From NCBI RefSeq assembly GCF_021496665.1, contig NZ_CP071246.1, forward strand, positions 2,108,001-2,172,000: 64,000 bases of DNA, given 5' to 3'. The first letter of the stretch is position 1, and each line of letters opens with the position of its first letter. This document shows positions 39,194-58,142 of the stretch, in pieces. Below the pieces are notes generated by a model. It was not told where the DNA came from. It saw only the letters and a list, made by a program, of their open reading frames with translations, and did no database searches. The position numbers and the translations under genes are program-made. This DNA comes from Corynebacterium sp. CNCTC7651 (GTDB lineage Bacteria; Actinomycetota; Actinomycetes; Mycobacteriales; Mycobacteriaceae).

Positions 39194-39313
39194 TGAGGCC
39201 TACAGGGGTGTAGGCCTCAAGATTTTTGAGTCACACCAGTCACACATAACCTGGAGTTTTGCGGTAGGCCTCAGCGCGAATGTTCGTTGAGGCCTACAGC
39301 GCTGTAGGCCTCA
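39194..39313 (+). repeat. 120-bp palindromic repeat element, copy 1
   Basis: Two 26-bp palindromes of form TGAGGCCTACA-NNNN-TGTAGGCCTCA begin 94 bp apart (39194-39219 and 39288-39313). Between them lies the core AGTCACACCAGTCACAC (39229-39245) and a half-site GTAGGCCTCA at 39264. The left hairpin is followed by AAGATTTTTG and may end pcaF transcription. The 302-bp gap 39094-39395 also holds a G-rich stretch before the element and, after it, a GTTGAGAGC...GGGTGCAGCTGTCA tail (39328-39354) shared with copy 3. No ORF is visible. Confidence 0.9.
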
Positions 39314-39395
39314 GTATTCTGCACCCGGTTGAGAGCAGCCGGGTGCAGCTGTCAAGGCTGGGCCGGGCGGCAACCGCACACCTACACTGGCGGGC

Positions 39396-39818
39396 ATGGA
39401 TCAATTCGGCATCCCCAACAACACTGGAAACACCGGCGGGAACCCGGGGCGCGACTTCGCGCTTGGTGCGCTCTTCATCATCATCGCGGTGGCATCGTTT
39501 GTGTTCCTTGAGGGGGCCACGGCGGTGTTCATTGGTATTGCGGGCGCAATCGCAGGTGCGGTTGCGATCATCCGCGGAATCCAGAATCCAGCCGAGCCGG
39601 GGCCGGATCCGCTGCAGCTGGAAAACGAGGCAGTCACCGGCGACCTTGGCGCCGAGGGGTTTGACTGGGATGCGCACTACAAGCGGGATTTCGGGCAGCC
39701 CGGTGAGCAGGCTGGCTTCGGCGAGCCCGGGCAGCCCGGTGATCAGGCTGGCTTCGGCGAGCCCGGGCGGCCAGGTGAGCAGGGGGACTACGGCCAGCCG
39801 GGGCAACCCCGCAGCTAA
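39396..39818 (+). CDS. small membrane protein with Gly/Pro/Gln-rich repeat tail
   Basis: A 140-residue protein of unknown function. After a Gly/Asn-rich start (DQFGIPNNTGNTGGNPG) come two membrane segments, ALGALFIIIAVASFVFLEGA and AVFIGIAGAIAGAVAIIRGI. A hydrophilic tail then repeats the unit GQPGEQAGFGEP: FGQPGEQAGFGEP, GQPGDQAGFGEP, GRPGEQGDYGQP. The repeats are near-identical in DNA, so copy number may vary between strains. It overlaps the convergent antiporter gene by 4 bp. ATG start; no family recognised. Confidence 0.75.
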   Translation: MDQFGIPNNTGNTGGNPGRDFALGALFIIIAVASFVFLEGATAVFIGIAGAIAGAVAIIRGIQNPAEPGPDPLQLENEAVTGDLGAEGFDWDAHYKRDFGQPGEQAGFGEPGQPGDQAGFGEPGRPGEQGDYGQPGQPRS

Positions 39819-41419
39819 GCGTCGGGGTGCGGATCGCTCAAGGTGCGCGGCGACGCCAGCGCGTCTCGTTCGCGCGCGATCATGAGGCGGTCTAGGTCCG
39901 CAAGCACAGCGTCAACATCGGCGGGGTTGTAGCGGCGCTCGCGTCGGGCGCGCTGCAACTCGTTGGTCGCGGCCTGCAGCGCAATGTGCTGCATCTCGCT
40001 GGCGGCAGCCCGGGCGCGCTCGAACGCCTCGCGGCGTTCGCGGGCGCCCTCGGGGTCAACCTGTCGTCGATTAGCAAGTGCCTCCAGCCATTCCTGCACC
40101 ATGTCGTAGGACTCGGGGGCGAGCTCCGGCCCGCGCTCCTGGACGGCCTTGCGGGCGGCGGCGTAGGCGCGGTCGTTCAGCTCGGCGTTAACGCGGTCGC
40201 CGCGGGCATCGGGGCCATTCTCCAGGTCAAGCTGGCGGACAAGCCACGGCAGAAGCAGGCCGGGAATCACCATGGTGAAGGTAAGCACGGACAGTGCGAT
40301 CACGCTGAGCTCATGGTGGTAGGCCATGGTGCCGGCCGGGATGGAGAGCACCAGCGCGAGCGTGACCAGGCCGCGCATGCCGGCCCACGCCATGAGCAGC
40401 ACCTCCTGGAGGCGCAGCGGGGCGACGTTGGTCTTGCCCTGCTTCTGGTGCACGCGGCACATCACCCACATCCAGGCGAAACGCACCGCGAAGGCCACCA
40501 GGGAAAGCACGAAGCCTATCCAGACGGCTTCCCAGAAGTTGGTGCCGGCATCGTCGATAGCGTCGCGCACGCTCATGCCGATCAGGCCGAAAGCGAGGCC
40601 GGTGAAGAGCAGCTCCACCGTCTCCCAGAAGGAGTGGCCGCTCAGGCGGTCCTCCGCAGTCAGCGAGGCGCGGGAGCTCATCTCCACCGCCGCGATCACA
40701 ATCGCGATCACGCCGGACGCATGAATCTCCTCCGCCGCCGCGTAAATGGCGAACGGCAGCACCCAGGTGAACGCGGTGCGGATCACGCTATCCGGCACGT
40801 GGTCCATGAACCACGCCGCAAGCCTGCCGACGACTAAACCGATCACCACCGCGACTACCGCGGCGTACACAAACTTCAGCAGACCGGCGCCGAAATCGAT
40901 CTCATCCCCCGCGAGCAGGGCGGCGAGGGCGACATTGAAAGCGACGATGGAGGCGGCGTCGTTAAACAAGCCCTCCGTCTGCAGCGTGCCGGTGATGCGC
41001 CGCGGGATGCCGGCCGGGCCCGCCACCGCGTCCACCGCTACCGGGTCGGGCGGGGCGATTGCCGACGCAAGCACCATCGCACCTGCAAGACCAATGCCCG
41101 GCATCAGCCACATGGCGGTGCCCGTCAGCGCTGCGATGGTGAGAAACACCAGCACCACGGACATGGACAGCACCACGTTGAGCTGGGAGCGGATCATGCC
41201 CCACGACGTTCTCCTTGCCAGCGACCACAGCAGCGGCGGCAGGAAGATCGGCAGGATCAGGTGCGTATCCAGGCTCACCGTCTGAATCCCGGGGATGAAC
41301 AGCACGGGGGCCACTGCGATGGTCAAAAGCGCCGGCCACGGCAGGCCCGTGCGTTCACCGATTGCGGCGACGAGGACGGTGGCGAGCAATAAGCCGATGA
41401 TGGCAAGGAAAACTGTCAC
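39815..41419 (-). CDS. Na+/H+ antiporter, CPA1/NhaP family
   Basis: A 534-residue cation:proton antiporter with about twelve helices and a cytoplasmic tail. The transport-site helix is TEGLFNDAASIVAFNVALAA (Asn-Asp pair) near residue 158, and SAIAPPDPVAVDAV precedes it. AWAGMRGLVTLALVLSIPAG lies near 345. The tail is a charged coiled segment (ARRERRYNPADVDAVLADLD). The start is probably the GTG at 41419 (VTVFLAIIGLLLA); the open frame continues upstream over the glutaredoxin-like gene region but with a non-coding composition. It exports sodium or other cations for pH and salt homeostasis. Confidence 0.85.
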   Translation of the reverse strand: MTVFLAIIGLLLATVLVAAIGERTGLPWPALLTIAVAPVLFIPGIQTVSLDTHLILPIFLPPLLWSLARRTSWGMIRSQLNVVLSMSVVLVFLTIAALTGTAMWLMPGIGLAGAMVLASAIAPPDPVAVDAVAGPAGIPRRITGTLQTEGLFNDAASIVAFNVALAALLAGDEIDFGAGLLKFVYAAVVAVVIGLVVGRLAAWFMDHVPDSVIRTAFTWVLPFAIYAAAEEIHASGVIAIVIAAVEMSSRASLTAEDRLSGHSFWETVELLFTGLAFGLIGMSVRDAIDDAGTNFWEAVWIGFVLSLVAFAVRFAWMWVMCRVHQKQGKTNVAPLRLQEVLLMAWAGMRGLVTLALVLSIPAGTMAYHHELSVIALSVLTFTMVIPGLLLPWLVRQLDLENGPDARGDRVNAELNDRAYAAARKAVQERGPELAPESYDMVQEWLEALANRRQVDPEGARERREAFERARAAASEMQHIALQAATNELQRARRERRYNPADVDAVLADLDRLMIARERDALASPRTLSDPHPDA

Positions 41420-41447
41420 GCAGGGCAGTGTACGTCGCGCGCCCCAA

Positions 41448-41722
41448 CTACACCTGGTCGAAGAACTCCACGTGCTGGCCGCCGATGACCTTGGACGGCA
41501 CGCCGATCTTGCCCGCTGCCTTGATCTCCGCGTATCCGTCGAGCGCGTCGCGGTAGGCAAGGAAGCGCTTCAGGTTCCGGATGTCCGTGACATCCAGCAT
41601 CTCAGCCCCGCCGAACTGCTCCGGGTCCGCAGCGTATTGCGCAATCACGCCCGCGCAGTCGGGGCACTGGTGGTGCACGAAGATTTCCACGCGCGCTGTC
41701 TCCGCCGCGTTACCCATCGCCA

Positions 41723-41723
<1 letters not shown>
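41448..41723 (-). CDS. glutaredoxin-like small protein
   Basis: A 91-residue protein with a thioredoxin-fold start VEIFVHHQCPDCAGVIAQYA whose CPDC active site sits near residue 20. The remainder, LDVTDIRNLKRFLAYRD and KIGVPSKVIGGQHVEFF, shows the cis-Pro region expected of glutaredoxins. It overlaps the end of glf by 1 bp, so it is translated with that gene. A redox role is likely; a link to the flavoenzyme Glf is speculation. Confidence 0.75.
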
Positions 41724-42973
<1,250 letters not shown>

Positions 42974-43053
42974 TCAACTCTTACTTGAAACTTGAGGTTG
43001 CGGTAAGCTGCGTTTCAATTCACTGTTGTCACATGTGCCCCAGGAGATGAACC

Positions 43054-45063
43054 GTGCAACAACGACGACGCCTCAACCCAGCGGCACCGGCCGCCAAGCA
43101 CCCGCTGCTGGCCGCCGTTGTGGCCGCAATATTGACCGTGGCCGTGGTGGCAGCCGCGATGGTGACCAACGGCCGGATTCTGCAGGTGCAGAACGTCGGC
43201 CCCGCGAACATCGAGGTGAACATCGAGGTCTACAGCGACACCGACTCCTTCGCAGCCGGCGCGGACATCACCGTCGATGACGCAGCCATTCGCACCCAGG
43301 GCGGCGGCGAAGAGCATGTCCGCCGCGTGGTGAAGGAATTCACGCGGGACCGCGAGTTCTCCATCGTCGGCCTGACCTGGAAGGGCGACCGCGACATCGC
43401 CGCGTACGTGCGCGCCGAGCGCCCGGACGGCTCCTGGTCCGAGTGGTACGCGATGGATCCGGTGGACCCGCCGGCCGGCTCCGACACTTTCGGCACCGAG
43501 CCGATCTACGTCGAGCCGACCCGCCGCGTGCAGGTTTCCACCGGCAACGTGGACATGCTTGAAGGCGGCCGCGCGATCTCCGACGCACCCAACACCGCCC
43601 TGGACCTCAACGCTGTATTCCTGGACGGCGGCACCGGCATGGTCACGGGCGACATCAACCCGGTCGCAGACTCCTACACCCGCGGCATGCCCAAGGTGAT
43701 CACCCGCGCGCAGTGGGGCGCGGGTGCATCGCGCAACCCGACGTACACCGAGCCGGTGACGGCAGCGACCGTCCACCACACCGCGGGCTCCAACAACTAC
43801 ACCGAGGCGCAGGCCCCGGGCATCGTGCGAGGCATTTGGCACTACCACGCCATCACCAACAACTGGGGCGACATGGGCTACAACGCGCTGGTGGACAAAT
43901 ACGGCAACATCTACGAAGGCCGCGCCGGCGGCCTGGACCGCGCGGTACAGGGCGCCCACGTCGGCGCGTTCAACTCCAACACCTGGGGCGTCTCCGTCCT
44001 GGGCAACTACATGAACCAGGCACCGTCAGAACAGGCCATCGACGCACTCGGCGAGATCATCGGTTGGAAGGCCGCCGTCGCCGGCTTCGACCCGCTCGGC
44101 TACAGCTACCACGTCGCAGAAGGCAACTTCCGCGGCTCCCGTTTCAGCGCCGGCCAGGGCAAGCTGTTCCCCAACATCAACGCGCACCGGGACTTCCACT
44201 ACAACGACTGCCCGGGTGATGTGCTCTACGCGCGGATGCCGGACATTCGTCGTAAAGCAGCAGTGAAGTACAACGCCTTGCGCGCGGACCGCGCGTTTGG
44301 CACCCAGGGCTGGCTGGACCAGCTGCTGAACCCGAACCGGGCGGATCGGAACCAGCAGACCCCGGCCACGCAGCCTGGGCAGCAGCAGCCGGCCGGGCAG
44401 GCGCAGACGCAGCAGCCGGTGCGCACGGAACGCACGGTGACCAACTCCATCACCACCCCGGACGGCACCACCACAACGGTGACCAAGGAGACCACGCAGA
44501 CCAGCCCGGCAACAGAGGGCCAGGCAGCGACGGTGAACACCCAGCTGTTCTCCGAGCTCTCCAGCGGCGACAGCCTGGCTATCGCCACCGTAGTGGGCAC
44601 CGTCGCCGGTGTTGCGCTGGTCTACGCCTTCCAGCAGGGCATGTTCGACGACGCGATCAAGAACGTCGGCGGCACCGAGCTCCTCGCCGGCGTGACGGTG
44701 AAGGACCTCACCCCGTACATCTCTCCAGTGCTCAAGGTTGTGGATTCCAGCTCTGACTCGGATGTCTGGATGCAGCTGGAGCCCATCCTGGGCAAGATCG
44801 CCGGCGCAATGACCGGCCCGGGCGGCACCCAGATGGCGTTCTATGCCAACGGCATCGGCGTGCGCGATACCAAGGGGCAGATTTTCGCCCTCGTCGGCGA
44901 GATTGCGAACGCCTGGCTGCAGCAGGGTCTGGACGCCGGCCCGCTGGGCCTGCCGATCTCCGCGCAGACCAGCGTGAACGCGGATCAGATCCGCATGGAC
45001 TTCGAGGGCGGCGCGATCGTCTTCACCCCATCCACCAAGACGATCAACATCATCACCCGCTAA
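43054..45063 (+). CDS. secreted N-acetylmuramoyl-L-alanine amidase (PGRP type) with LGFP-like C-terminus
   Basis: A 669-residue exported protein. The membrane/signal segment HPLLAAVVAAILTVAVVAAAM covers about 16-36. The amidase_2/PGRP domain covers about 220-410, with ATVHHTAGSNNYTEAQAPGI, GDMGYNALVDKYGNIYEGRA and NINAHRDFHYNDCPGD supplying zinc ligands. A Gln/Thr-rich linker (425-490) follows, then a second hydrophobic segment (LAIATVVGTVAGVALVYAF). The end (GLDAGPLGLPISAQTSVNAD, MDFEGGAIVFTPSTKTI) is an LGFP-type wall-binding repeat. Start GTG with AGGAGA six bases before. It probably cleaves the peptide from the glycan of the wall; the homologue sits beside glf in C. glutamicum. Confidence 0.88.
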   Translation: MQQRRRLNPAAPAAKHPLLAAVVAAILTVAVVAAAMVTNGRILQVQNVGPANIEVNIEVYSDTDSFAAGADITVDDAAIRTQGGGEEHVRRVVKEFTRDREFSIVGLTWKGDRDIAAYVRAERPDGSWSEWYAMDPVDPPAGSDTFGTEPIYVEPTRRVQVSTGNVDMLEGGRAISDAPNTALDLNAVFLDGGTGMVTGDINPVADSYTRGMPKVITRAQWGAGASRNPTYTEPVTAATVHHTAGSNNYTEAQAPGIVRGIWHYHAITNNWGDMGYNALVDKYGNIYEGRAGGLDRAVQGAHVGAFNSNTWGVSVLGNYMNQAPSEQAIDALGEIIGWKAAVAGFDPLGYSYHVAEGNFRGSRFSAGQGKLFPNINAHRDFHYNDCPGDVLYARMPDIRRKAAVKYNALRADRAFGTQGWLDQLLNPNRADRNQQTPATQPGQQQPAGQAQTQQPVRTERTVTNSITTPDGTTTTVTKETTQTSPATEGQAATVNTQLFSELSSGDSLAIATVVGTVAGVALVYAFQQGMFDDAIKNVGGTELLAGVTVKDLTPYISPVLKVVDSSSDSDVWMQLEPILGKIAGAMTGPGGTQMAFYANGIGVRDTKGQIFALVGEIANAWLQQGLDAGPLGLPISAQTSVNADQIRMDFEGGAIVFTPSTKTINIITR

Positions 45064-45066
45064 TCA

Positions 45067-45105
45067 CACCTGGTTATTACACCTGGTTATTACACCTGGT
45101 TGTAG
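45067..45105 (+). repeat. 13-bp tandem repeat, three units, at the glpK 3' end
   Basis: CACCTGGTTATTA occurs at 45067-45079 and again at 45080-45092, with a third, partly diverged unit from 45093. The third and second units contain the last codons and stop of glpK on the minus strand; the extra units lie in the 26-bp gap before the convergent amidase stop. It looks like slippage of the terminal codons. Confidence 0.8.
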
Positions 45106-46631
45106 CTCCTCGCGACGGCATCTTCCCACCGCGCGAGGAGCTTCTCGCGTTCCGGCGCACCCATCGTTGCGGTGAAGGTGGTTGTGGGGCCGAGGCTTAA
45201 GGGAGCGTCGATAAGCAAAGCCCCAATGCCCGCCGCCGAAGCCGCGCCCATCACCGTCGTCTCCACATTGTCCGGGCGCACGACATCCAGGCCGAGGATG
45301 TCCGCCTGCATCTGCATAAGCAGGGAGTTCGCGGTCATCCCGCCGTCCACCTTCAGCGTCGCGGGCGCGCCACCCATCGCCGCAACCACCTCATACGTTT
45401 GCAGGCACGTCGCCTCCAGCGCCGCGCGGGCAATGTGCCGCTTATCCACGAACCTAGTCAGCCCACAAATAATCCCCCGCGCATCCGGCCGCCACCGCGG
45501 CGCGAAGAGCCCCGAGAACGCCGGCACGATTGTTACGCCGCCGGAATCCGGCACCTGCGCGGCCAGCTCCTCCGTCTCTTCCGCGGAGTTGAGCATGCCA
45601 AGCTGATCCCGCAGCCACTGGATCAACGAACCGCCGACCGCCACCGAACCCTCCAGCGCGTACACCGGCGGCTGCCCCTCGATCTGGTACGCGACGGTGG
45701 TGAGCATGCCGTCCTCGCTGAACCGCGGTTGTGTGCCCGTGTTCAGCAGCATGAACAGGCCGGTGCCGTACGTCATCTTCGCGTCGTGCTCATTTAGCCC
45801 GTGCTGCCCGAACAGCGCCGCCTGCTGATCCCCGAGCACGCCCGTGATGGGCACCCCTCCCAGCGGGCCGCGGCTGCGCACCTGGGCAAAAGTGCCTATC
45901 GACGGTTTAATTTCCGGCAACATTTGCCTTGGCACCCTGATCGCCTCGCAGAGCTCGTCGCTCCACTCCAGCGTGGTGAGGTCCATGAGGAGCGTGCGAC
46001 TGGCGTTAGTCACGTCGGTGAGGTGCAGCGCGTTTTCGGTGTCGCGTGCGCCGCCCGTGAGGTTCCACATCAACCACGTGTCCATCGTGCCGGCGAGCAG
46101 TTCGCCGCGCTCCGCGCGCTCGCGGGCCCCTTCCACGTTGTCCAGGATCCAAGCCCACTTCGGCCCCGACGGGTAAGAGTTGTGCAGCAACCCGGTTTGG
46201 CGAAGGTATTTTGCCTGGTCGGCTGGGTGGTCGGCTGGGTGGTCGGCGTGGGGCGCCGGGTTGGCCTGGTCGGCCGCGCCGTCAGCCGCCGCGCTCGGGT
46301 TGGTGCGCGTGTCCTGCCACACGATTGCGTTGTAGATTGGCCGGCCGGTCGCCCGCTCCCAGATCACCGCGGTTTCGCGCTGGTTAGTGATGCCCAGCGC
46401 ACTGATGTCCTCGTCCGCGATGTCCTGTTTTGCCAGTGCCTCCACGATCGCGCGGCGCGTGTTGCGCCAGATCTCCATTGCGTCGTGTTCCACCCAACCC
46501 TCGCGCGGCATGATCTGGGCGTGCTCGTACTGCGCCTGCGACACCACCTGGCCCCGAGTGTCAGCAATGATCACCCTGGTAGATGTCGTGCCCTGGTCAA
46601 TCGCGGCGATGTACGTGGCGCTGTTCGGCAT
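45090..46631 (-). CDS. glpK: glycerol kinase
   Basis: A 513-residue FGGY kinase. ATP/glycerol motifs are [20 protein letters not shown] at the N-terminus, IVWQDTRT near 105, [12 protein letters not shown] near 270, [17 protein letters not shown] near 305 and the FGGY signature region near 365 ([16 protein letters not shown]). It phosphorylates glycerol at C3. An Ala/His/Pro/Asp-rich stretch after the DTRT motif ([20 protein letters not shown]) replaces the usual charged segment. It is coded by tandem GGTCGGCTGGGT-like DNA, an insertion peculiar to this gene. The ATG at 46631 ([12 protein letters not shown]) fits the family N-terminus. Confidence 0.93.
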
Positions 46632-46768
46632 ACGGGGCAGTGTACGGGGTGGGTTTGTCCAGCTTGGGAATGACTGGGGTTCACCTGTGGGCTGGGGGTG
46701 GTGCGCGGCGAGGCAGTTGGCGAGACAATGCGCAGCAACTTGGGCATCAACTTGGGCATGAGATTCGC

Positions 46769-46888
46769 TGAGGCCTACAGGGCTGTAGGCCTCAAGCAAA
46801 GTGAGTCACACCAGTCACACGCGACCTGCGGTTTTGGGGTAGGCCGCCAAGAGGAAATTCGCTGAGGCCTACACCCCTATAGGCCTCA
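46769..46888 (+). repeat. 120-bp palindromic repeat element, copy 2
   Basis: Palindromes at 46769-46794 and 46863-46888 have the same 94-bp offset as the other copies. The core AGTCACACCAGTCACACGCG lies at 46804. The right palindrome reads TGAGGCCTACA-CCCC-TATAGGCCTCA, and the internal half-site is decayed (GTAGGCCGCC). The 384-bp gap 46632-47015 holds this element, a T/G-rich stretch before it, and the promoter of the downstream gene after it. No other gene is visible. Confidence 0.9.
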
Positions 46889-47015: not shown

Positions 47016-47879
47016 ATGAACAATCAATCGACGCGAGAAGCAAAACGTACCCAGGAGATCGAATTGATCAAGCGGGTAGCTGGAGAAGCCAAGAAGTCCA
47101 TAGTCACCGGCCCAGCAGCCGCGAGGTTATTAACTTTGAGCACCTATTCATGGGTTACGCAGGTAGACCTTATCTTGAACAATCGGGGCCACACTTGGGG
47201 CAAGAAGCGGACATACACGGATCGCAGGTATCACGGCGCGTCTATCGATGCGTATCAAATATCGTCCACCGCTGGCATTTCCCATACCTGTCTACTTCGA
47301 TGTCTTTTCGACAGTTTTAGGTACCACGGCCGTCTCGAAGCGCTCGTACAGATTGAATCTGCACGCTGGAAATGGTCGAACCTGACCGTCGACGAGTTGC
47401 TGAAGCACACCGATGTCCTCCCTCGAGCGAAAGGCCTGCGCGAATTTCGAAGCCTTATCGAGTTCTCAGGCGCTACCAGTCAAAGCCCGCTGGAAACCTT
47501 GGCACGCGAGACTATCCTCACTGCAATCGAGAAGGGAGAGCTCCCTGAGGTTCACACGGTTGAGTTCCAGATCCCTTTTTGGATCAAAACCCGGGACGGC
47601 ACCATGCAGATCGCACGGGTGGACGTATTGATCAACGGCTATCTCGTGTTGGAGTTGGATGGCTTGATCAAATCTGACGGCACGTTCGGAGACCCGGACA
47701 CTATCACCCGCGAAGAACGCCATCGCGAGATGGAGTTGCAGAATCAGGGGCTCCTGGTCAGGCGGGCGGGGTGGACAAACGGCAGAGGTGAGGCGTTGCT
47801 CAATCTCATCCGCACCACCCTCGCCAACAATCCCGCACCGGCGGTGCTCCCCGTCCGTGCTGAGCCTTCCGCCGCCTAG
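47016..47879 (+). CDS. solitary DUF559-like (restriction-endonuclease-fold) protein
   Basis: A 287-residue protein, probably a member of the actinobacterial family with an N-terminal AbiEi-like helical part and a C-terminal DUF559/Vsr-like nuclease fold. The N-terminal half has AAARLLTLSTYSWVTQVDLI and SSTAGISHTCLLRCLFDSF. The C-terminal half has PLETLARETILTAIEKGELP, a strand with Asp (QIARVDVLINGYLVLELDGL), and REERHREMELQNQGLLVRRA, the pattern of Vsr-type endonucleases. An ATG at 47016 is preceded only by a TATAT -10-like box, suggesting a leaderless message. No partner gene is present. Function is unknown. Confidence 0.65.
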   Translation: MNNQSTREAKRTQEIELIKRVAGEAKKSIVTGPAAARLLTLSTYSWVTQVDLILNNRGHTWGKKRTYTDRRYHGASIDAYQISSTAGISHTCLLRCLFDSFRYHGRLEALVQIESARWKWSNLTVDELLKHTDVLPRAKGLREFRSLIEFSGATSQSPLETLARETILTAIEKGELPEVHTVEFQIPFWIKTRDGTMQIARVDVLINGYLVLELDGLIKSDGTFGDPDTITREERHREMELQNQGLLVRRAGWTNGRGEALLNLIRTTLANNPAPAVLPVRAEPSAA

Positions 47880-47940
47880 GGGCACTTTGCTTGACGACGT
47901 TCACCCAGCCTGCGCCAGCAAGAAACCCCGCCCCAGCTAC

Positions 47941-49640: not shown

Positions 49641-50887
49641 GGCACCAGCACGTCCTTGCCCACCCAGGGGCGCAGCGCCTCAGGCACGACGACGGAGCCG
49701 TCTGCCTGCTGGTGGTTCTCCAGGATCGCGACCAGCCAGCGGGTGGTGGCCAGGGTGCCGTTCAGGGTGGCGGCGGTCTGGGTCTTGCCGTCCGCGTCGC
49801 GGTAGCGGGTGTTCAGTCGGCGGGCCTGGAACGTGGTGCAGTTGGAGGTGGAGGTGAGCTCGCGGTAGGTATTCTGCGACGGCACCCACGCCTCCGTGTC
49901 AAACTTGCGGGCGGCGGAAGAGCCGAGGTCACCTGCGGCGACGTCGATGATGCGGTACGGCACCTCCACCAAGGCCAGCATCTCGCGCTCCAGCGAGAGC
50001 AGGCGCTGGTGCATCTCCTCTGCTTCCTCCGGCTTGCAGTAGACAAACATTTCCAGTTTGTCGAACTGGTGGACACGCAGGATGCCCTTCGTGTCCTTGC
50101 CGTAGGAGCCCGCTTCACGACGGAAGCAGCTCGACCACCCCGCATACAGCAGCGGCCCGTCGGAGAGGTCAATAATCTCGTCGCGGTGGTAGCCAGCAAG
50201 CGCCACCTCGGAGGTGCCTACCAGGTACATCTCGTCGCGCTCGAGGTAGTAAATCTCCTCGTCGTGCTCATCCAGGAAGCCGGTGCCGGCCATCACGTCC
50301 GGGCGCACCAGCACCGGCGGGACCATGACCTTGAAACCGGCCTCGCGCGCCTTTTGCGCGGCGAGCATGAGCATGCCCAGCTGCATCCAGGCGCCGTCGC
50401 CCACCAGGTAGTAGAAGCGCGCGCCGCCCACCTTAGCGCCGCGGGCCATGTCGATGATGCCCAGGCCCTCGCCCAGGTCAAGGTGGTCCTTGACCTCGAA
50501 ATCGAACTCCGGGACCTCGCCCACGTGCTCCAGCACCACGAAGTCTTCCTCGCCGCCCGCGGGAGCGCCGACGATCGGGTTCGGGATGGCGACCTGGAGG
50601 CGCGCAACCTCCGCCTCCGCCTGCTTCTGCGTGTCCGCTGCCTTGACGCGGGCCTTCAGCTCGTTCGATCCCTCGAGCAGCGCGGGGCGCTCCTCCGGGG
50701 AGGCCTGGCCGATCTTCTTGCCAAAGGCCTTCTGCTCGCCGCGCAGCTCATCCGCCACCTGGATGGCTGCGCGCCGCGCCTCATCGGCGGCGAGCAGCTG
50801 GTCCACCAGCTGCGGATCCTCGCCGCGGGCCACCTGGGACTCGCGGACGGCATCGGGGTTTTCGCGCACACTCTTAAGATCGATCAC
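49637..50887 (-). CDS. serS: seryl-tRNA synthetase
   Basis: A 416-residue class II aminoacyl-tRNA synthetase. The N-terminal arm is the long antiparallel coiled coil (about 30-100). The catalytic domain has motif 2 with [20 protein letters not shown] near 255, [10 protein letters not shown], and motif 3 in [19 protein letters not shown] near 380. Charges tRNA-Ser with serine. It is divergent from the GntR regulator gene and begins the serS-plsC-HAD operon, the same order as in C. glutamicum. Confidence 0.96.
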
Positions 50888-50966
50888 GCCTACAAACTCT
50901 ACAGGGTCGCACCCACCCGGTCAGGAGCTGTGGACTGGTCATAACCACCGGCGTAAGCTGGAGTGC

Positions 50967-51704
50967 ATGATCACCGACGGCCCCGTTCCCAAGCACGCGC
51001 AGCTGCGCGAGATCTTGGAGCGGACAATCGCCGAGGAACTCTCGCCCGGCGACCCGCTCCCGGGCGAGCGCGCCTTGGAGGAGGAGTACGGGGTCTCCCG
51101 CATCACGGTGCGCCGCGCGATCGGCGACTTGGTCAACGCCGGCAAACTGCGCCGCGTGCGCGGAAAAGGCACCTTTGTCGCCCCGTCGCCGGTGGTCAGC
51201 CGCCTGCACTTGGCCAGCTTTTCGGAGGAAATGCGCCACCAGCGGGTGGAAGCATCCTCCCGCGTACTGCTTGCCGGCATTGATCACGCCCCGCCGGAGG
51301 CCACGGAGTTCTTCGGCACAGCGCCGGACACGCAGCACATCCACCTCCGCCGCCTACGCTTGGGCGACGGCGAGCCCTACGCGGTGGATGATGCCTGGTA
51401 CAACGCCACACTGGTCCCTACGCTCCTGGACCACGACGTGGAGCAATCCATCTACACCCTTCTGGAGCGCGAGTACGGGTTCGGTATCACGGAGGCGGAC
51501 CAGACCGTCTCCGCCGTCACCGCCGGCGCGCAGAATGCCCAGCTGCTGGAGGTCGCGCCCGCTACCCCCCTGCTCCACGTCGTGCGCCACGGCCGCAGCG
51601 GCGCCTTGCACCTGGAGTACTGCTCTTCCGTCTACCGCACGGACCGGTACACGCTGCGCACCCGCGTGGTGCGTGAACTGGAGCAACCGGGGCCCACAGG
51701 GTGA
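50967..51704 (+). CDS. farR: GntR-family regulator with UTRA domain (FarR-like)
   Basis: A 245-residue HutC-subfamily regulator. The N-terminal winged helix (GDPLPGERALEEEYGVSRIT, RRAIGDLVNAGKLRRVRGKG) covers about 10-72. A UTRA ligand domain follows, with VSRLHLASFSEEM, LRLGDGEPYAVDDAWYNATL and LEYCSSVYRTDRYTLRTRVV. In C. glutamicum the GntR gene divergent from serS is farR, an acyl-responsive regulator; that identity is from position and family. ATG at 50967. Confidence 0.8.
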   Translation: MITDGPVPKHAQLREILERTIAEELSPGDPLPGERALEEEYGVSRITVRRAIGDLVNAGKLRRVRGKGTFVAPSPVVSRLHLASFSEEMRHQRVEASSRVLLAGIDHAPPEATEFFGTAPDTQHIHLRRLRLGDGEPYAVDDAWYNATLVPTLLDHDVEQSIYTLLEREYGFGITEADQTVSAVTAGAQNAQLLEVAPATPLLHVVRHGRSGALHLEYCSSVYRTDRYTLRTRVVRELEQPGPTG

Positions 51705-51722
51705 TGGGTTAGGCTAGCCGTC

Positions 51723-52823
51723 ATGGTTTCTCCCGGACGTAGCCGCACCACCGCCACGCGCGCCTTCTTGGTCTCCGCGCTGGCGGGCGCCGTTGGCATC
51801 GGATCCTACGGTTTCGTTGCGGAGCGCACCGGGGACGCGGGCGGAGTGGAAACGCAGGCGCAGGCCACCACGACGGCTGCGGGGGAAACGGGTGAAACGG
51901 AGACGTCGGAAAGCATGGCCCCCGTGACCTTCACAAGCGCGGACCAGGGCTCCTGCCTGACGTGGGAGGTGGGGCCGGACGGTTCGATCTCCGGTTTTGA
52001 GCAGGCGGATTGCGCGGGCCCGCACCGTTTTGAGGTGTCGCTGCGCGAGGACCTGGGCACCTACCCCACCAGCGAGTTCGGCCCCACTGCGCCCATGCCC
52101 AGCCAGACGCGCCAGGCGCAGCTGCGCGAGGAGCTGTGCGGCGCCGCGACGCTGCGCTACCTGGACGGGGTGTACGACCCGACGGGGCGCTACTCCATCG
52201 CGCCGATCCTGCCGCCTGCTGCCGCGTGGGAGAAGGGCGACCGCACCATGCTCTGCGGCCTGCAGGAGACAGACCGCAGCGGCGAGCCGATCCTGACCAC
52301 CGGGCGCGTCGCCGACCAAGACCAGGCCCGCGTGTTCGAGCCGGGCCAGTGCGTGGCGGTGGATCAGACGAACTCACTGACCGTGGTGGATTGCGCGGAC
52401 CCGCACCAGTTGGAGATCACCGCCAAAGTGGCCATGGGGGACGTGTTCCCGGACCACACCCCGGCGGTTGAGGAGCAGGACGGCCACCTGGGCAACGTCT
52501 GCACCGCGGCCGCGCAGGACTACCTCGGCGGCGAGGAGAACCTCTACCGCATCACCCTGCAACCTTTCTGGACGACGCAAAAACCCGAGGCGTGGGACGG
52601 CGGCTCCCGTTCCGTCAACTGCGCGCTGGTGTTCTCGCGCCCTGAGGGGCAGTTCGCGGAGCTCACCGGCAGCGCACGCGAGGGCAGGGAGCACTTGCTT
52701 ATCGACGGCGCACCCCCAGCCGAAAAGCCCGACCGCCGGCCGCTTCGCTCCGATGCCGGTGCCGGGGCGCCGGGCGAGGCGACCGGCGCAGATGCGGGTG
52801 CTGGTGACGCGGTGGCGCAGTGA
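51723..52823 (+). CDS. secreted or membrane-anchored septum-formation-family protein
   Basis: A 366-residue protein with an N-terminal membrane/signal segment (ATRAFLVSALAGAVGIGSYG), a Thr/Glu-rich linker and two related domains. Domain one has GSCLTWEVG, QADCAGPHRFEVS and LCGAATLRYLDGVY; domain two has GQCVAVDQTNSLTVVDCADP HQLEITAKV and VCTAAAQDYLGG. The repeated Cys-X-HxxE pattern is that of the Septum_form family (cell-division-associated, little studied). A Pro/Ala-rich tail ends it. ATG 18 bp after farR, so they may share a transcript. Confidence 0.8.
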   Translation: MVSPGRSRTTATRAFLVSALAGAVGIGSYGFVAERTGDAGGVETQAQATTTAAGETGETETSESMAPVTFTSADQGSCLTWEVGPDGSISGFEQADCAGPHRFEVSLREDLGTYPTSEFGPTAPMPSQTRQAQLREELCGAATLRYLDGVYDPTGRYSIAPILPPAAAWEKGDRTMLCGLQETDRSGEPILTTGRVADQDQARVFEPGQCVAVDQTNSLTVVDCADPHQLEITAKVAMGDVFPDHTPAVEEQDGHLGNVCTAAAQDYLGGEENLYRITLQPFWTTQKPEAWDGGSRSVNCALVFSRPEGQFAELTGSAREGREHLLIDGAPPAEKPDRRPLRSDAGAGAPGEATGADAGAGDAVAQ

Positions 52824-53170
52824 TGACACCCGTCACCCACGCCGAGTTCGAGGCCATGATCAACGACGCCCTGGACACCATCCCCGACGAATTTGCCCAC
52901 CATATGACCAACATGGTGGTGCTGGCGCGGGATTTCAACGCAGACAACCCGGAACTGCTGGGCTTGTTCGAGGGTGTGCCGCTGACGGAGCAGTACTCCA
53001 ACCACAGCGGGTTCCTCCCCGATGCTGTGTTCATTTACAAAAACGCGCTGGAAGCGATCTGCGCCGACGAGGAGGAGTTACGCCACGAGGTCAAAGTGAC
53101 CGTGCTGCATGAGGTGGGGCACTACTTTGGCCTTGAGGAGCACGAACTTCACGAGCTCGGCTGGGGCTAG
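52823..53170 (+). CDS. small zinc metallopeptidase-family protein
   Basis: A 115-residue protein of the minimal zincin family (DUF1025/Zincin_1). The zinc site is TVLHEVGHYFGLEEHEL (HExxH and a following Glu) near residue 95. VFIYKNALEAICADEEELR leads into it. The ATG overlaps the stop of the preceding gene (ATGA-type), indicating coupling. Substrate unknown. Confidence 0.85.
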   Translation: MTPVTHAEFEAMINDALDTIPDEFAHHMTNMVVLARDFNADNPELLGLFEGVPLTEQYSNHSGFLPDAVFIYKNALEAICADEEELRHEVKVTVLHEVGHYFGLEEHELHELGWG

Positions 53171-53225
53171 CGCGGCCCACGGGTCTGGCGCAGCCGGCGC
53201 GGCCGACGGGTCTGGCGCGGAGCGG

Positions 53226-53846
53226 CTAGCCCTCCGGCAGCGGGTAATCGGCCCACTGGACCACGCGCCAGTCGCCGAACTCGCCAACCGGGTCGATGAC
53301 CAGGTACGTGCAGTTGGCCAGGTGGGACTGTTCCGCGTACTCCGGCGTGACCGTTGTGGCGTTAGCGGCGAACGCGCGGATCGCCCCGCCGTGGGACACC
53401 ACCACGGTGTTGCCCTCTTCCTGCGCGAAGGGCGCGATCGCCCCGCGGTAGCGGGCGAGGAAGAGTTCCAAGGACTCGCCCTCCTCAATCGCCGCAGCTA
53501 GGTCGCGGCGGTAGAACCCGCGGAACGAGGAGAAGTAGCCTTCGTGCGCCTCGCGGGAATTCTGCATTTCCCAGCGGCCGGCATTGACCTCGTGCAGGCC
53601 AGGCACCGCAGGGATGTCCGCGAAGTCGCTCGGCGTGTCCGGCCCGAACGCCAAGGCGGCGGTCTCGCGGGCGCGCAGCGCTTCGGAGGAAATGACTCGG
53701 TCAACGGCGTAGCGCGAACGGATCTCGTCGCCGGCAGCGCGGGCTTGCTCCTGCCCCAATTCCGTCAGCGCGGCGCCCGGCAGCTGGGTGTCCAAGAGGC
53801 GATCCACGTTGGAGGTGGTCTGGCCGTGTCGCAGCAAAATCAGCAT
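53226..53846 (-). CDS. histidine phosphatase family protein (phosphoglycerate-mutase-like)
   Basis: A 206-residue enzyme with the phospho-His motif MLILLRHGQTTSNVDR at the N-terminus, the catalytic acidic residue near LHEVNAGRWEM, and the second His in VVSHGGAIRAFAA near 153. It is more likely a phosphatase than a glycolytic mutase. It lies 11 bp downstream of pheA on the same strand, a gene order found in C. glutamicum. Confidence 0.85.
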   Translation of the reverse strand: MLILLRHGQTTSNVDRLLDTQLPGAALTELGQEQARAAGDEIRSRYAVDRVISSEALRARETAALAFGPDTPSDFADIPAVPGLHEVNAGRWEMQNSREAHEGYFSSFRGFYRRDLAAAIEEGESLELFLARYRGAIAPFAQEEGNTVVVSHGGAIRAFAANATTVTPEYAEQSHLANCTYLVIDPVGEFGDWRVVQWADYPLPEG

Positions 53847-53857
53847 GGTCTTCCTAC

Positions 53858-54790
53858 CTACTTCCCTTCCCGTGCGCGGCGCACCCAGGCGTCGGCGGCC
53901 GCGATGCGTTCGTGGGCCAACCCCGCGCCCGCGTCATCCGTGCCTAACCCGGAGCCCGCGGCACCAGTCCACCGCGGCCAGGACCCGAGGAAGCGCACCC
54001 AGCTCGCCCGCAGGTAGACACCGCGCAGCGCCTCGGCCACGGGGGCGTCATCCACATGTCCAACAAGCTCCACAAAGAAGTTGTACGTGTTCGGCTCTTG
54101 GCGCGTGGGGCGGGACTCAATACGGGAGAGATCTACACCCCGATAGGCAAATTCCTGCAGGATGGCCACCAGCGTGCCCGGCTCGTTGGGTGTCTGGAAC
54201 ACCAGCGCCGTCCGGTCGCGCCCCGTGCGCGCGGGCGGCTGCGCCTCCGGCCCGGCCAGCACAAACCGCGTGCGCGCCGTATCCATGTCCGCCACGCCGT
54301 GGGCGTGCACCTCCAGGCCGAACAAGTCCGCCGCCCGCTCGGGCGCGGCGGCCACGTCAGCCTGGCCCTCCGCCACCATGCGCGCGGCAGCAGCGTTCGA
54401 GGACGCGGAGACGAACTCCACGCCCGGCATGTGTTCTGCCACCCAGCCTTTGACCTGCTGGTATGCCACGGGGTGGGTGGCTAGCGTGTGAACGTCGGCA
54501 AGCGAAGTGCCCGGGCGCGTCATGATGGCAAACGCGATCTCCAGCTCAGTCTCGCCCGCAATCTGCACGCCCGGCTCCACCAACGCGTCCGAGGTGGAGG
54601 TCACGGCGCCGTCCACAGAATTCTCGATGGCCACCACCGCGTAGTCCGCCTCACCCGCGCGCACAGCGGCGAGCGCAGCAGCAGGCGAATCTGCCGGCAC
54701 GTACTCCGGCTCGGGCAGGTCGAAGCGGCGCGCGGCTTCCTCCGTGAAGGTGCCGGCTGGGCCAAGGTAGGCAATGCGGGTCACCTGCAT
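53858..54790 (-). CDS. pheA: prephenate dehydratase
   Basis: A 310-residue enzyme of phenylalanine synthesis converting prephenate to phenylpyruvate. The PDT domain starts TRIAYLGPAGTFTEEAARRF, with VVAIENSVDGAVTSTSDAL near 55 and the TRFVLAGPEA end near 185. The ACT regulatory domain (210-290) carries NEPGTLVAILQEFAYRGVDL and ESRPTRQEPNTYNFFVEL. The C-terminal tail is Ala-rich and longer than needed. The ATG at 54790 overlaps the stop of the DUF2891 gene. Confidence 0.95.
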   Translation of the reverse strand: MQVTRIAYLGPAGTFTEEAARRFDLPEPEYVPADSPAAALAAVRAGEADYAVVAIENSVDGAVTSTSDALVEPGVQIAGETELEIAFAIMTRPGTSLADVHTLATHPVAYQQVKGWVAEHMPGVEFVSASSNAAAARMVAEGQADVAAAPERAADLFGLEVHAHGVADMDTARTRFVLAGPEAQPPARTGRDRTALVFQTPNEPGTLVAILQEFAYRGVDLSRIESRPTRQEPNTYNFFVELVGHVDDAPVAEALRGVYLRASWVRFLGSWPRWTGAAGSGLGTDDAGAGLAHERIAAADAWVRRAREGK

Positions 54791-55803
54791 CAACCTATCG
54801 CAGTTTCGGCCAGCAGGGCGTAGGTAATCAACCAGTGCGTAGCCATGAAGTTGTCGCCGCCCAGTTGCCCGCGCGCGGACGCCACCAGCGCGTCCGTCCC
54901 CTCCGGCGTGCCCAACAGCCGCAGCATCCAGGCGCGCGTGAGCGCCAGCCCGTGCAGGTGTGCGAGCTTGCCGTCGCGTGCGTCCGGCACGTGCGGGGCC
55001 TGGGTGTAGAAAGCTTCTGCTTCACGACGCTCCCCCCAAAACGCCTCCTCCCATGCGGCGAAGTCGCCAGGTTCGAGCACCCGCTGCATGAGCACGGCCT
55101 CCCCGAGGCCGTTGGACACGAAGTCGTGCGCGCTGAGCTCCCACGCAAACGGGTAGGCGCGGTCCGCGCCGAACCACTCGCGCGCGGTCGCCTCAATCTG
55201 GGCGCGCAGCTGGGCTCCGGGCGAGCCCGTACCGGCCAGCGAGCCCGTACCGGCTGGCAGCGCGTCGTGCATCAGGAACAGCGCCAGCGCGGAATTGTCG
55301 TGCACGCCGTGGCGCACGGGCATCGGCTGGGCGCGAAGCCACGCTGCCGCATTCGCCACAATCTGCGCCTCCAAGGGCACGAGCGCCTCCGCCCACGCGG
55401 CAGCGCGCGGCTCTACTTTCGCCATGTCCCGGCACGCCTTGCCCAGGTGCAGCGCCCAGGCCCAGCCGTAAGGCCGTTCATAGAGCGGGTGGTCGCGCAG
55501 GTAGGCGGCTTCGGTGAAGATGTTGGTTGGGGTTAAGCGGGCGTCGATAAGCACAAGAAGCTCCTCGCGCATTTCCCCCAATTCCCATGCGAGCAGCTTC
55601 ACGCCGCTGGCCAGCATGTGCACGCTAGAGTGCCAGTCGAAGCTGCCCCAGAACGCGGGGTGGAGTGCGCGCGGGGTGCAGTCGGTGTCGGCGGGGCCGG
55701 CGCTGACGTGGTGCATGGCTGCGGGGTATTCGCGGCCGACGACGGCGCAGATGGTGCGCGCCCAGTCCCGGGCCGTCGCGTCGGAGATTGCGGTGCCTGT
55801 CAC
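54790..55803 (-). CDS. DUF2891 family protein
   Basis: A 337-residue soluble protein of the DUF2891 family, recognised by TPRALHPAFWGSFDWHSSVH near residue 50, ERPYGWAWALHLGKA near 130 and FMATHWLITYALLAE at the end. Its alpha-helical layout resembles alpha/alpha-barrel enzymes, but no function has been established. It shares its stop region with the pheA start, so both are co-transcribed. Start GTG. Confidence 0.8.
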   Translation of the reverse strand: MTGTAISDATARDWARTICAVVGREYPAAMHHVSAGPADTDCTPRALHPAFWGSFDWHSSVHMLASGVKLLAWELGEMREELLVLIDARLTPTNIFTEAAYLRDHPLYERPYGWAWALHLGKACRDMAKVEPRAAAWAEALVPLEAQIVANAAAWLRAQPMPVRHGVHDNSALALFLMHDALPAGTGSLAGTGSPGAQLRAQIEATAREWFGADRAYPFAWELSAHDFVSNGLGEAVLMQRVLEPGDFAAWEEAFWGERREAEAFYTQAPHVPDARDGKLAHLHGLALTRAWMLRLLGTPEGTDALVASARGQLGGDNFMATHWLITYALLAETAIG

Positions 55804-55820
55804 GGCGCTAAAGTTACCGC

Positions 55821-56525
55821 ATGCGCGAACGCTCTCGGCTGGTCACGGAAGTGTGGCTTGTCCTCATCATCACCTTCGGCACCTCCGGGCTGCGCGCCGC
55901 GCTGCGCTTGGTGGACTCCCTGCTCAAGGCCCCACTCAACCAGCAGAGCACCACGCTTATCGACGCTTCCTCGAACATCCACTGGCTCGACCTCGCCCTC
56001 CAAGCCACCTCGGCGCTCACGTTAATCGGGTGGGGCGGGCTGGCGTGGTACCTGCTTGGGTGGCGGTGGCAATGGCCCAGGTGGCGCGACCTCGCTCACG
56101 GGGCCGGATTCGCCGCGATGATCGGCTTGCCGGGGCTGGCGCTGTATGTGGCGGGTGTGCACCTGGGTTTGTCCAAGGTGGTGGTGCCGGCGACGGAGGC
56201 TGTGCAGATTCCGACCTCGCTCTTGTGGGCGTTTGCCAACGGCTTCGGTGAAGAGGTTGTGGTGGTGATGTACTTGGTCACAAGGTTAGGCCAGCTGGGG
56301 TGGAAACCGTGGCAAGCGATCGCGGCGTCTTCGGCGCTGCGCGGGTCCTACCACCTGTACCAGGGGGTCTCGGCCGGGTTCGGCAACATCGTGATGGGCG
56401 TGGTGTTTGCCTGGTACTTCCACCGCACCGGCCGCGTCTGGCCGCTGGTGCTGGCCCACTTCCTCATCGACGCGGTGGCTTACATCGCCTACCCGTTGCT
56501 CGACCTATCTTTCCTGGGGATCTAG
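55821..56525 (+). CDS. CPBP/Abi-family intramembrane metalloprotease-like protein
   Basis: A 234-residue polytopic membrane protein. The family motif appears as GFGEEVVVVMYLVTRLGQLG near residue 150, with the Glu-Glu pair but without the Arg that follows it in classical EExxxR proteases. SALRGSYHLYQG supplies the first His and LAHFLIDAVAYIAYPLLDL the second. Actinobacterial members of this subfamily often show the same EE-V-rich form. Divergent from DUF2891; it lies just before the LCP gene. Confidence 0.8.
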   Translation: MRERSRLVTEVWLVLIITFGTSGLRAALRLVDSLLKAPLNQQSTTLIDASSNIHWLDLALQATSALTLIGWGGLAWYLLGWRWQWPRWRDLAHGAGFAAMIGLPGLALYVAGVHLGLSKVVVPATEAVQIPTSLLWAFANGFGEEVVVVMYLVTRLGQLGWKPWQAIAASSALRGSYHLYQGVSAGFGNIVMGVVFAWYFHRTGRVWPLVLAHFLIDAVAYIAYPLLDLSFLGI

Positions 56526-56547
56526 CGCGGGGATTTACACTATCCCC

Positions 56548-57933
56548 ATGCCAACCACGCCGCACTCCAACGATCCCCGCGACAACCTGGGCGATTACGT
56601 GCTGGGCAAAGATGGCAAGCCCATCGTTGACCGCTACGGCCGCCCGGTGCGCCGCCGGCCGGCCTCTGGAGGGCCCGCCGGTGATGCGACCCGGCGGGTC
56701 GAGCGGCCGGAGCGGGTCGAGCGGCCGCGCCAGGAGTACCAACCGCGCCGCGCACCCGAGTACACGCGGGTAGAGCGTGCGGACTACCCGGAGCGCCCGC
56801 GGCAAGAGCGCCCGCGCCAGCAGTACGAGCCGCGCCGTGTGCCGGAGTACACGCGCCAGGAACGCCCGCAGCAGCGCCCGCCACAGCAGGTCCCTCCACA
56901 GCGAACTCAGCAGCGCCCGCCACAGCAGGTCCCGCAGCAGCCACGCCGCGCGCGCCGGCAGGTGCAGCAGCCCGAACAACCGGTGATCAGCCGGCAAACA
57001 CGGGCGGGGTCGGAGCCGAGGGTTGAAAGGAGGCGTCGTAAAGCAAAAGCCCCTGGATGCAGCACGATTCTTGCCATCCTCCTAGTGCTGGCGATCGCGG
57101 GCACCCTGCTTGCCGATGCCCGCATGGACCGCGTCCAAGCCCTCCCCGAAGAGCGTATTGCCAATACGGCGGGGACGAACTGGCTGCTCGTGGGGTCGGA
57201 CTCGCGCGTGGGCTTAAGCGAGGAGGAGATTGAGCGGCTGGGCACGGGCGGCGATATTGGGTCTACGCGTACGGACACCATCATGCTTCTGCACCTGCCG
57301 CTGACCGGGAAAGCGACGCTGATATCGATCCCACGCGACTCCTACGTGGCGGTGCCGGGCTATGGGTACGACAAGGTCAACGCTGCATACGCGTACGGCG
57401 GGCCGCAGCTTCTCGCCGCGACGGTGGAGCAGGCGACGGGCCTGCGCGTGGACCGTTACGCGGAGATCGGCATGGGCGGGCTCGCGCGCGTAACCGACGC
57501 GGTGGGCGGCGTGGAGATTTGCGTTGCCGAGCCTATCGACGATCCCTTAGCCAACCTCAACGTCCAACCAGGCTGCCAGAAGATGGACGGCGCGACCGGG
57601 CTTGGGTACGTGCGCACCCGCGCGACAGCGCAAGGCGACCTGGACCGCGTGGCACGGCAGCGAGAGTTTTTGGGCGCGCTGGTGGCTAGGACGCTGTCGC
57701 CGGCCGTGCTACTGAATCCCTTCCGACTGATTCCGCTGGCGTGGACAGTGCCGACGTTGTTTGTGGTGGGCCAGGGCGACCATGTGTGGAACCTGGCGCG
57801 GATTCCGCTGGCCATGCGCGGCGGGCTTGAGACCGTGACCATCCCCATCGGCGACTTCATGGACACCGAGGTGGGCAACGTGGTGATCTGGGACGAGTAC
57901 GCGGCCGAGGAGCTGTTCAGCTCGCTGAGGTAG
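56548..57933 (+). CDS. lcpB: LytR-CpsA-Psr family protein (LcpB-like)
   Basis: A 461-residue membrane-anchored phosphotransferase of the LCP family that ligates arabinogalactan or other polymers to peptidoglycan. The N-terminal 165 residues form a low-complexity Arg/Gln/Pro-rich cytoplasmic region, followed by one helix (TILAILLVLAIAGTLLAD). The LCP domain has NWLLVGSDSRVGL, GDIGSTRTDTIMLLHL, STLISIPRDSYVAVPG-type strand and DRVARQREFLGALVART with the catalytic Asp/Arg positions. The position matches lcpB of C. glutamicum; LcpA is usually elsewhere. ATG at 56548. Confidence 0.85.
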   Translation: MPTTPHSNDPRDNLGDYVLGKDGKPIVDRYGRPVRRRPASGGPAGDATRRVERPERVERPRQEYQPRRAPEYTRVERADYPERPRQERPRQQYEPRRVPEYTRQERPQQRPPQQVPPQRTQQRPPQQVPQQPRRARRQVQQPEQPVISRQTRAGSEPRVERRRRKAKAPGCSTILAILLVLAIAGTLLADARMDRVQALPEERIANTAGTNWLLVGSDSRVGLSEEEIERLGTGGDIGSTRTDTIMLLHLPLTGKATLISIPRDSYVAVPGYGYDKVNAAYAYGGPQLLAATVEQATGLRVDRYAEIGMGGLARVTDAVGGVEICVAEPIDDPLANLNVQPGCQKMDGATGLGYVRTRATAQGDLDRVARQREFLGALVARTLSPAVLLNPFRLIPLAWTVPTLFVVGQGDHVWNLARIPLAMRGGLETVTIPIGDFMDTEVGNVVIWDEYAAEELFSSLR

Positions 57934-58022
57934 TTGGGGGTTGGGGTTCGGGGCTGGGGCTCCCGTGCCGGCGGACAGACCTCTGCGCTGGGTTTCTTGG
58001 GGGTCGCAGCGCCAGATTCCAC

Positions 58023-58142
58023 TGAGGCCTACAGCGCTGTAGGCCTCAAGAATTTCGAGTCACACCAGTTACACCCGACCTGGGCTTTTCCGGTAGGCCT
58101 CAGGGCCGGTTCACGCTGAGGCCTACAGGGCTGTAGGCCTCA
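58023..58142 (+). repeat. 120-bp palindromic repeat element, copy 3
   Basis: Palindromes at 58023-58048 (perfect, TGAGGCCTACA-GCGC-TGTAGGCCTCA) and 58117-58142, again 94 bp apart. The core is AGTCACACCAGTTACACCCG at 58058, and the half-site GTAGGCCTCAG is present at 58093. A GTTGAGAGCTGCAGGGTGCA tail (58155-58174) is shared with copy 1. The 357-bp gap 57934-58290 also holds a G-rich stretch before the element and the terminator at 58212. Confidence 0.9.

Follow-up and report, generated by a model that had tools for sequence, protein, structure and literature searches.

A fixed-length palindromic repeat in Corynebacterium is paired with a gene for a predicted nuclease-like protein

What kind of unit recurs, at exactly 120 bp, in three intergenic regions of one Corynebacterium chromosome, and does a gene in the same genome serve it? 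The stretch analyzed here (the window) comprises 64,000 nucleotides of Corynebacterium sp. CNCTC7651, bases 2108001-2172000 of a single 2,453,109-bp contig, and the three copies lie on its forward strand at 39194-39313 (copy 1), 46769-46888 (copy 2), and 58023-58142 (copy 3). The original prediction described each copy as two palindromes starting 94 bp apart around a conserved core and proposed a mobile or selected unit of fixed length; lengths, positions, and spacing were all confirmed. We found that the repeat is paired with a gene for a predicted nuclease-like protein, and this pairing is well supported. At a probability of about one half, the 120-bp units are dispersed copies of the repeat paired with this gene, following a logic like that of REPINs and RAYT transposases with an unrelated enzyme. 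The closest named relatives, judged by the HAD protein encoded beside copy 2, were Corynebacterium stercoris (90% identity) and C. glaucum (82%).

A genome search returned nine copies of the unit in 2.45 Mb, seven of them within one 341-kb stretch, so the idea of a repeat family stands. The palindrome starts were 94 bp apart in all nine pairs, no insertions or deletions separated the copies, and all 18 palindromes with at most one mismatch fell within these pairs; two weaker matches, with 2 and 3 mismatches, lay elsewhere in the genome. The palindrome half-sites were identical across the nine copies except for one substitution and the single interior half-site (B2) had a mean identity of 94%, whereas the two linkers had mean pairwise identities of 49-50% and the flanks only 28-37%. 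Near-invariant half-sites at a fixed spacing beside diverged linkers indicate that arms and spacing are constrained while the linkers drift, which supports the proposed fixed-length mobile or selected unit. The unit in the window is beyond chance: half-site matches with at most two mismatches numbered 23 against a shuffle mean of 11.4, and none of 100 shuffles reached 23.

In copy 1 the palindromes occupy 39194-39219 and 39288-39313, with the repeat or core at 39228-39262 and the single half-site at 39263-39273. Several details predicted for all three copies held with small departures. Each copy has two 26-bp palindromes, but the right one of copy 2 contains TATAGGCCTCA, with one mismatch; two AGTCACAC core units are present, but the second reads AGTTACAC in copy 3; and copies 1 and 3 share GTAGGCCTCAG as their third half-site, where copy 2 has GTAGGCCGCC. 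The core 16-mer GCGACCTGCGGTTTTG lies at 46821-46836 in copy 2. The four-base centers of the 18 palindromes consist only of G and C (GGGG, CCCC, GCGC, GGGC, CGGG), and one copy (L002; loci are numbered L, genomes G) is preceded at 26 nt by a further lone half-site, TGTAGGCCTCA, which lies outside the 120-bp unit. Outside the species, exact-palindrome and blastn searches returned nothing: exact-palindrome scans of genome and viral contigs and blastn of plasmids and phages gave no matches.

Copy 2 stands directly 5' of an unannotated gene (47016-47879, forward strand, 287 amino acids) that starts 127 bp past it; the genes on either side of this gene, for a HAD hydrolase and an FGGY kinase (glpK-like), are encoded on the opposite strand. 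The original prediction had seen no transposase; this holds for the RAYT type, but it overlooked this likely partner gene. The repeat family extends beyond the three copies of the window, which also contains the likely partner gene. The protein is predicted to combine an N-terminal AbiEi-like domain (model 12-152) with a C-terminal nuclease domain of Vsr/EDxHD/PD-(D/E)XK type (model 155-274). The AbiEi match covers AbiEi residues 55-195, not its start. The predicted fold is likewise AbiEi-like plus Vsr/homing-endonuclease-like, the latter being a catalytic-domain fold of the Vsr/EDxHD or PD-(D/E)XK kind, and the acidic and basic residues E160, D203, E213, D215, and K219, candidates for an active site whose motif class may be any of these, were invariant in 11/11 partner proteins. 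A protein search gave 86 sequences including the query, and the 11 rows with a source name all read "hypothetical protein".

At the HAD locus the gene was present in 11 of the 28 named Corynebacterium loci fetched, and a palindromic element of various arm types lay 5' of it in all 11; in one pair of loci (L041/L042) gene and element are inverted together. In nine HAD loci without the gene the two neighbors are nearly adjacent (about 10-57 bp), and the six gene-less loci that were read had no element. The partner proteins of 10 relatives were 42-70% identical to the window protein, the neighboring proteins being mostly more similar. Among 242 Corynebacterium genomes, 147 had a homologue at E ≤ 1e-8 and 39 had one of at least 200 bits; outside the genus it was rare, with 7/298 genomes of the order matching at E ≤ 1e-10, four of these being Corynebacterium. 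The genome of CNCTC7651 also carries two weaker homologues, at 1967588 (L221, 73 bits) and 2367723 (L231, 52 bits). G066 has three near-equal-scoring homologues near contig ends (L242, L243, L244), and the stretch before one of them reads like an IS3-type transposase.

A covariance model built from the nine copies matched 14 of the 242 genomes at E ≤ 0.01; the search used strict filters, which makes the element-positive sets lower bounds, and by eye the match in G165 looks like a chance coding match. The arms of the relatives' palindromes differ between genomes while the stretch between them is recognizably alike. The common core of the diverged relatives is GCGACCTGNGGTTTT and its variants, and a 22-base core pattern gave 39 matches in 22/242 genomes against 4 for the reversed pattern. 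An inverted repeat of at least 8 bp flanks the core in 20 of 30 loci read and is absent from the other 10, a figure that has no control; the core is central in the repeat to within 2 bases in many elements and off center in several. The element listing left out weak rows from four named loci, together with three-mismatch rows that lacked a repeat of at least 9 bp. The elements escaped an initial scan of relatives for closely spaced palindromes, which allowed loops of only 2-8 bases. Some genomes carry tandem arrays of palindrome plus core with periods of 69-104 bp, a range at which rigid phasing of every array on double-stranded DNA was rejected. An invertible promoter or site-specific recombination was likewise rejected, the loop between the arms varying between elements. 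At L183, L186, L189, and L256, repeats of the form GTCCAAAAAGTCACCAGACTC, which read like insertion-sequence ends, lie beside the upstream palindromes; L256 has such sequence where L259 has the left half of the element, a pattern resembling insertion of an insertion sequence into it.

Elements lay in convergent gaps in 19/38 cases, against 28/123 gene pairs with gaps of at least 100 bp (Fisher p = 0.002, crude gene calls; the Fisher tests here ignore relatedness of the genomes). This preference is consistent with insertions being tolerated at sites without a promoter to disturb, and it argues against many of the copies serving as operators. Their neighbors are varied: among 62 proteins scanned, nearly all from genes flanking elements, no Pfam family accounted for more than 3 and no NCBIfam model for more than 4.

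Gene and repeat tend to occur together across the genus. A homologue of at least 200 bits was found in 12/14 covariance-positive genomes vs. 27/228 others (p = 4e-9) and in 14/22 core-pattern genomes vs. 25/220 others (p = 1e-7), both values uncorrected for relatedness. An inverted repeat of at least 11 bp lay upstream at 26/30 homologue loci, compared with 4/30 downstream and 7/210 control windows; the test span was 340 bp around and upstream of the match start, with strands taken from the homologue search output, and strands guessed from stop codons gave 23/30 vs. 10/210. The four misses were L188, L200, L203, and L204, and imperfect palindromes are visible by eye in L188, L200, and L204. 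Seven of the 30 loci lie away from the HAD and kinase genes, and the upstream repeat was found in 7/7 of them.

The dispersed copies of a genome mostly match the arms beside a homologue of the gene in that genome. In 12 genomes we counted the arm types that have copies away from the gene, and 12/15 recurred beside a same-genome homologue. A lower-scoring paralogue carried the matching arms in three genomes (G123, G188, and G225) and did so in G019 and G186 for one or two arm types. In G066 the distance from a gene copy to an array of about 13 palindromes, repeated every 72 bp, is 3.1 kb. Palindromes of the arm ATCGTCTAGC numbered 14 in G155, 10 in G157, 5 in G069, 15 in G037, and 6 in G123, all genomes with this arm at the gene (the counts include the gene-adjacent copies), and 2 in G048, which has a variant arm. 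G002 and G101, whose gene-adjacent arm is ATCTGCTAG, had 3 and 2, the picture expected of remnants from an earlier specificity. No palindromes of this arm occurred in four genomes whose arms were of other types, and the reversed pattern gave none. Of 57 exact ATCGTCTAGC palindromes, 34 form 17 pairs within 1 kb, all 94-96 bp apart, and 23 are unpaired. This spacing matches that of CNCTC7651 despite different arms and loops.

Arm sequence co-varies with the N-terminal part of the protein. Over 23 gene-adjacent elements (253 pairs; L203 and L206-L212, with unclear or single-arm forms, were left out), arm similarity correlated with N-terminal identity at r = 0.59 and with C-terminal identity at r = 0.47. 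The partial correlation was 0.41 for N given C (permutation p = 0.0005, an optimistic value given related genomes) and 0.02 for C given N. The proteins at L184 and L189 are 95% identical in the C-terminal part and 64% in the N-terminal part, and their arms are different. The ATCGTCTAG and ATCTGCTAG groups are separated at 12 positions, all of them within residues 1-104 and seven in 57-74, a result unchanged without the truncated L205.

Positions persist between species while arms switch. Nine own loci were compared with nine element loci of G222, a C. stercoris sequence by 100% identity over 162 bases. Five of the nine own loci (L001, L004, L005, L006, L007) share an orthologous gap with a C. 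stercoris element, the pair L005/L182 by one flank only, and the other four had no match among the nine C. stercoris loci compared. At the orthologous gaps the arms are TGACAGCTCCA in C. stercoris and TGAGGCCTACA in CNCTC7651. Beside copies 1 and 3, on the forward strand at 39329-39354 and 58157-58182, and in weaker form at L003, stands a degenerate palindrome, TTGAGAGC..GCTGTCA, which is similar to the C. stercoris arms and may be read as a remnant of an older arm of that type. Half-sites of two arm types are seen by eye side by side at L254 and L257 in relatives. Empty gaps also occur: in C. senegalense and C. bouchesdurhonense the copy-3 gap is short and has no element.

These results suggest how a protein of this kind could serve its repeat. 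The N-terminal domain would recognize a half-site of 11-13 bp; nicking or cutting of DNA, at or near the conserved core, would fall to the C-terminal domain, which is conserved and Vsr/homing-endonuclease-like. Repair might then copy elements into other gaps, preferably places that already have the core, and a change of N-terminal specificity would be followed by the rewriting of dispersed copies in place to the new arms. As in REPIN/RAYT systems, a single dedicated enzyme would thus act in trans on a small repeat that is itself non-autonomous. Repair-copying together with arm rewriting at existing cores would explain the persisting positions, the changing arms, the absence of target duplications, and the arrays.

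REP-like repeats are known from bacteria with RAYT transposases. No Y1 HUH RAYT gene (PF01797) was found at E ≤ 0.001 in any of 20 genomes, namely all 14 covariance-positive ones and six without a match, one of which (G101) was later found to have palindromes; the control for this search matched in 5/14 named genomes. By that test the system is not REPIN/RAYT, though it may work like one. Passages of PMC3116915 describe REPINs as inverted palindromic units at a fixed distance, with conserved ends, a less conserved spacer, tandem clusters, and specific enzyme groups, and the present elements share the inverted doublets and fixed spacing (9/9 own pairs, 17/17 pairs of relatives), the clusters, the conserved ends with a less conserved spacer, and the tie of repeat groups to specific enzymes. 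Unlike in REPIN/RAYT systems, copies number about ten here rather than hundreds, and the core between the palindromes is conserved across species while the palindromes change. REPs carry a GTAG tetranucleotide at one repeat end, according to passages of PMC3733652; here there is no consistent GTAG foot, GTAG lying inside the own arms and being absent from the arm types ATCGTCTAGC, GAGGTCGACC, and TTCCAGGTGTCGAGCCGT. CGTC-tagged REPs, including Neisserial dRS3, for which the same passages report no dedicated transposase, are also short palindromes, often dimers with some conserved spacers (PMC3733652); they differ in that the own arms lack the CGTC tag and a likely dedicated partner gene exists here. 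A word search of that paper's main text gave no occurrence of Corynebacterium or Actinobacteria. Unlike Vsr-type (EDxHD) homing endonucleases such as I-Bth0305I, the predicted nuclease has an AbiEi-like domain at its N terminus and is associated not with an intron or a single coding target but with dispersed non-coding palindromes, its cleavage being putative. Unlike AbiEi of type IV toxin-antitoxin systems, it matches AbiEi only over residues 55-195 and has a nuclease domain fused; no AbiEii (DUF1814) toxin gene follows the partner gene at the window locus, where the neighbors are the HAD-hydrolase and kinase genes. Among open-access PMC papers we found no description of the core or of the repeat-gene pairing; a table in an earlier stem-loop survey includes C. 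diphtheriae clusters (PMC2267715).

Several observations weigh against repeat copying by this protein. Both HAD and FGGY-kinase genes lie near 21 of the 30 homologue loci and a HAD gene near two more; by these shared neighbors 21-23 of the 30 are one orthologous locus in related species and not independent, and they are partly the same loci that built the search alignment. At 21 further, mostly weaker homologue loci from 11 genomes the repeat lay upstream in 8 and downstream in 7 (controls 6/147), distant homologues had one at 1/8, and L221 and L231 have no family palindromes within 1.5 kb. Three of the 15 dispersed arm types (G019 CTGCGCACT, G138 CATTTTCGTGC, and G140 TGAGGTCTACA) had no adjoining homologue in the stretches examined, and the G066 array was found only in a second, wider look at longer stretches. 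In the cross-genome control near-variant arms matched loci of other genomes, as with TGAGGTCGACC, common to G066 and G112, and the 10-mer CGAGGTCTAC, which does not enter the count of arm types, was uninformative, matching 8 loci elsewhere. Arm similarity also followed C-terminal identity, and arms were assigned by eye. The matched AbiEi region is not the DNA-binding domain of AbiEi, and a Foldseek search on its own returned no PDB structure at E ≤ 0.001. Nine copies is a low number. As the original prediction had noted, there is no clear target duplication: none was shared among the flanks of the nine copies, judged by eye, whereas a DDE-type MITE (miniature inverted-repeat transposable element) would have one. 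Excision, insertion, and cleavage are steps we infer and none was observed. Finally, the upstream element could be an operator.

That last point belongs to the main rival, in which the protein is a DNA-binding autoregulator like AbiEi antitoxins, the upstream element its operator, and the dispersed copies regulon sites or decoys. The position of the element 5' of the gene and the predicted AbiEi-like fold of the N-terminal part agree with it, and PMC7319586 provides a precedent in AbiEi and Rv2827c, which autoregulate by binding inverted repeats in their own promoters. We nevertheless consider it unlikely. The 19 elements in convergent gaps have no promoter to regulate, tandem arrays of many units occur, the dispersed copies adjoin varied genes, and the nuclease domain is left unexplained. 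A regulon had been discarded on the finding that the neighbors lack a common family. Autoregulation of the adjacent gene could, in addition, coexist with repeat copying. It is improbable that the palindromes are centromere- or nucleoid-like sites serving the host, with the protein as an architectural or segregation factor. The strict spacing without indels, its retention at 94-96 bp across species with different arms and loop lengths, and the persistence of positions would suit such sites, but gene and elements are patchy (39/242 genomes with a homologue of at least 200 bits), relatives have empty gaps, array periods differ, and 7/9 own copies crowd into one stretch of 341 kb.

An antitoxin array stands upstream of its toxin gene in type III systems, and the hairpins, the arrays of some genomes, and the element directly 5' of a nuclease-like gene recall this; the folding of the copy-1 strand is also much stronger than that of shuffled sequences (z = -6.4 to -7.7). 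Even so, we think it quite improbable that the element is a repeat RNA inhibiting the downstream protein. The palindromes by themselves account for the strong folding, dispersed copies are remote from the gene, and the arms hardly vary within a genome though base-pair covariation alone would permit variation. The structured-RNA option of the original prediction also lacks Rfam support: there were no matches in the window at the curated score, the best weak one, around copy 1, having E = 0.11, far under its cut-off. An ACC/GGT apical stem in the core was rejected separately, being broken without compensation, by eye, in own copies L004, L006, and L009. Passive hairpins or terminators, spread by ordinary recombination and beside the gene by accident, were already disfavored and seem very improbable. 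The convergent-gap preference and the T-rich stretch after the left hairpin of copy 1 agree with them, and termination, which had been suggested for some copies, is possible for single ones; it leaves the conserved core, the paired gene, and the arm switching unexplained, and accident would not be expected to give the arm-homologue matching at 12/15, the upstream repeats at 26/30 vs. 7/210, or the N-domain co-variation.

If the copies are indeed served by the partner protein, genomes in which no RAYT was detected show a one-enzyme-one-repeat pairing with an unrelated, uncharacterized nuclease-like protein, and a protein that databases call hypothetical gains a likely DNA target. More tentatively, and with less confidence than for the pairing logic as such, this might be a second, independently evolved enzyme-repeat partnership that joins a fast-changing reader to a conserved cutter, in which the core keeps the addresses and a change of reader converts the arms. 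Species would then carry different "dialects" at the same places. Close relatives differ mainly in the N-terminal part and the repeat, which makes recognition, movement, and dialect switching directly testable.

Copy 3 lies in a convergent gap between genes of the LytR_cpsA_psr family (56407-57933, forward strand) and the sodium:alanine symporter family (58291-59925, reverse strand). Just past it, at 58214-58243, is a terminator-like hairpin, AGAGGCCTACC..GGTGGACCTCTTTTGTTTT, whose arm resembles the element arm, with two mismatches. Elsewhere in the window, two divergent open reading frames at 32957-35622 have low third-position GC and AAA ATPase domains, one of them also DUF4143, and are perhaps a foreign insert. 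Large open reading frames at 6900-25200 look like a possible mycolate/arabinogalactan cluster, judged by gene order.

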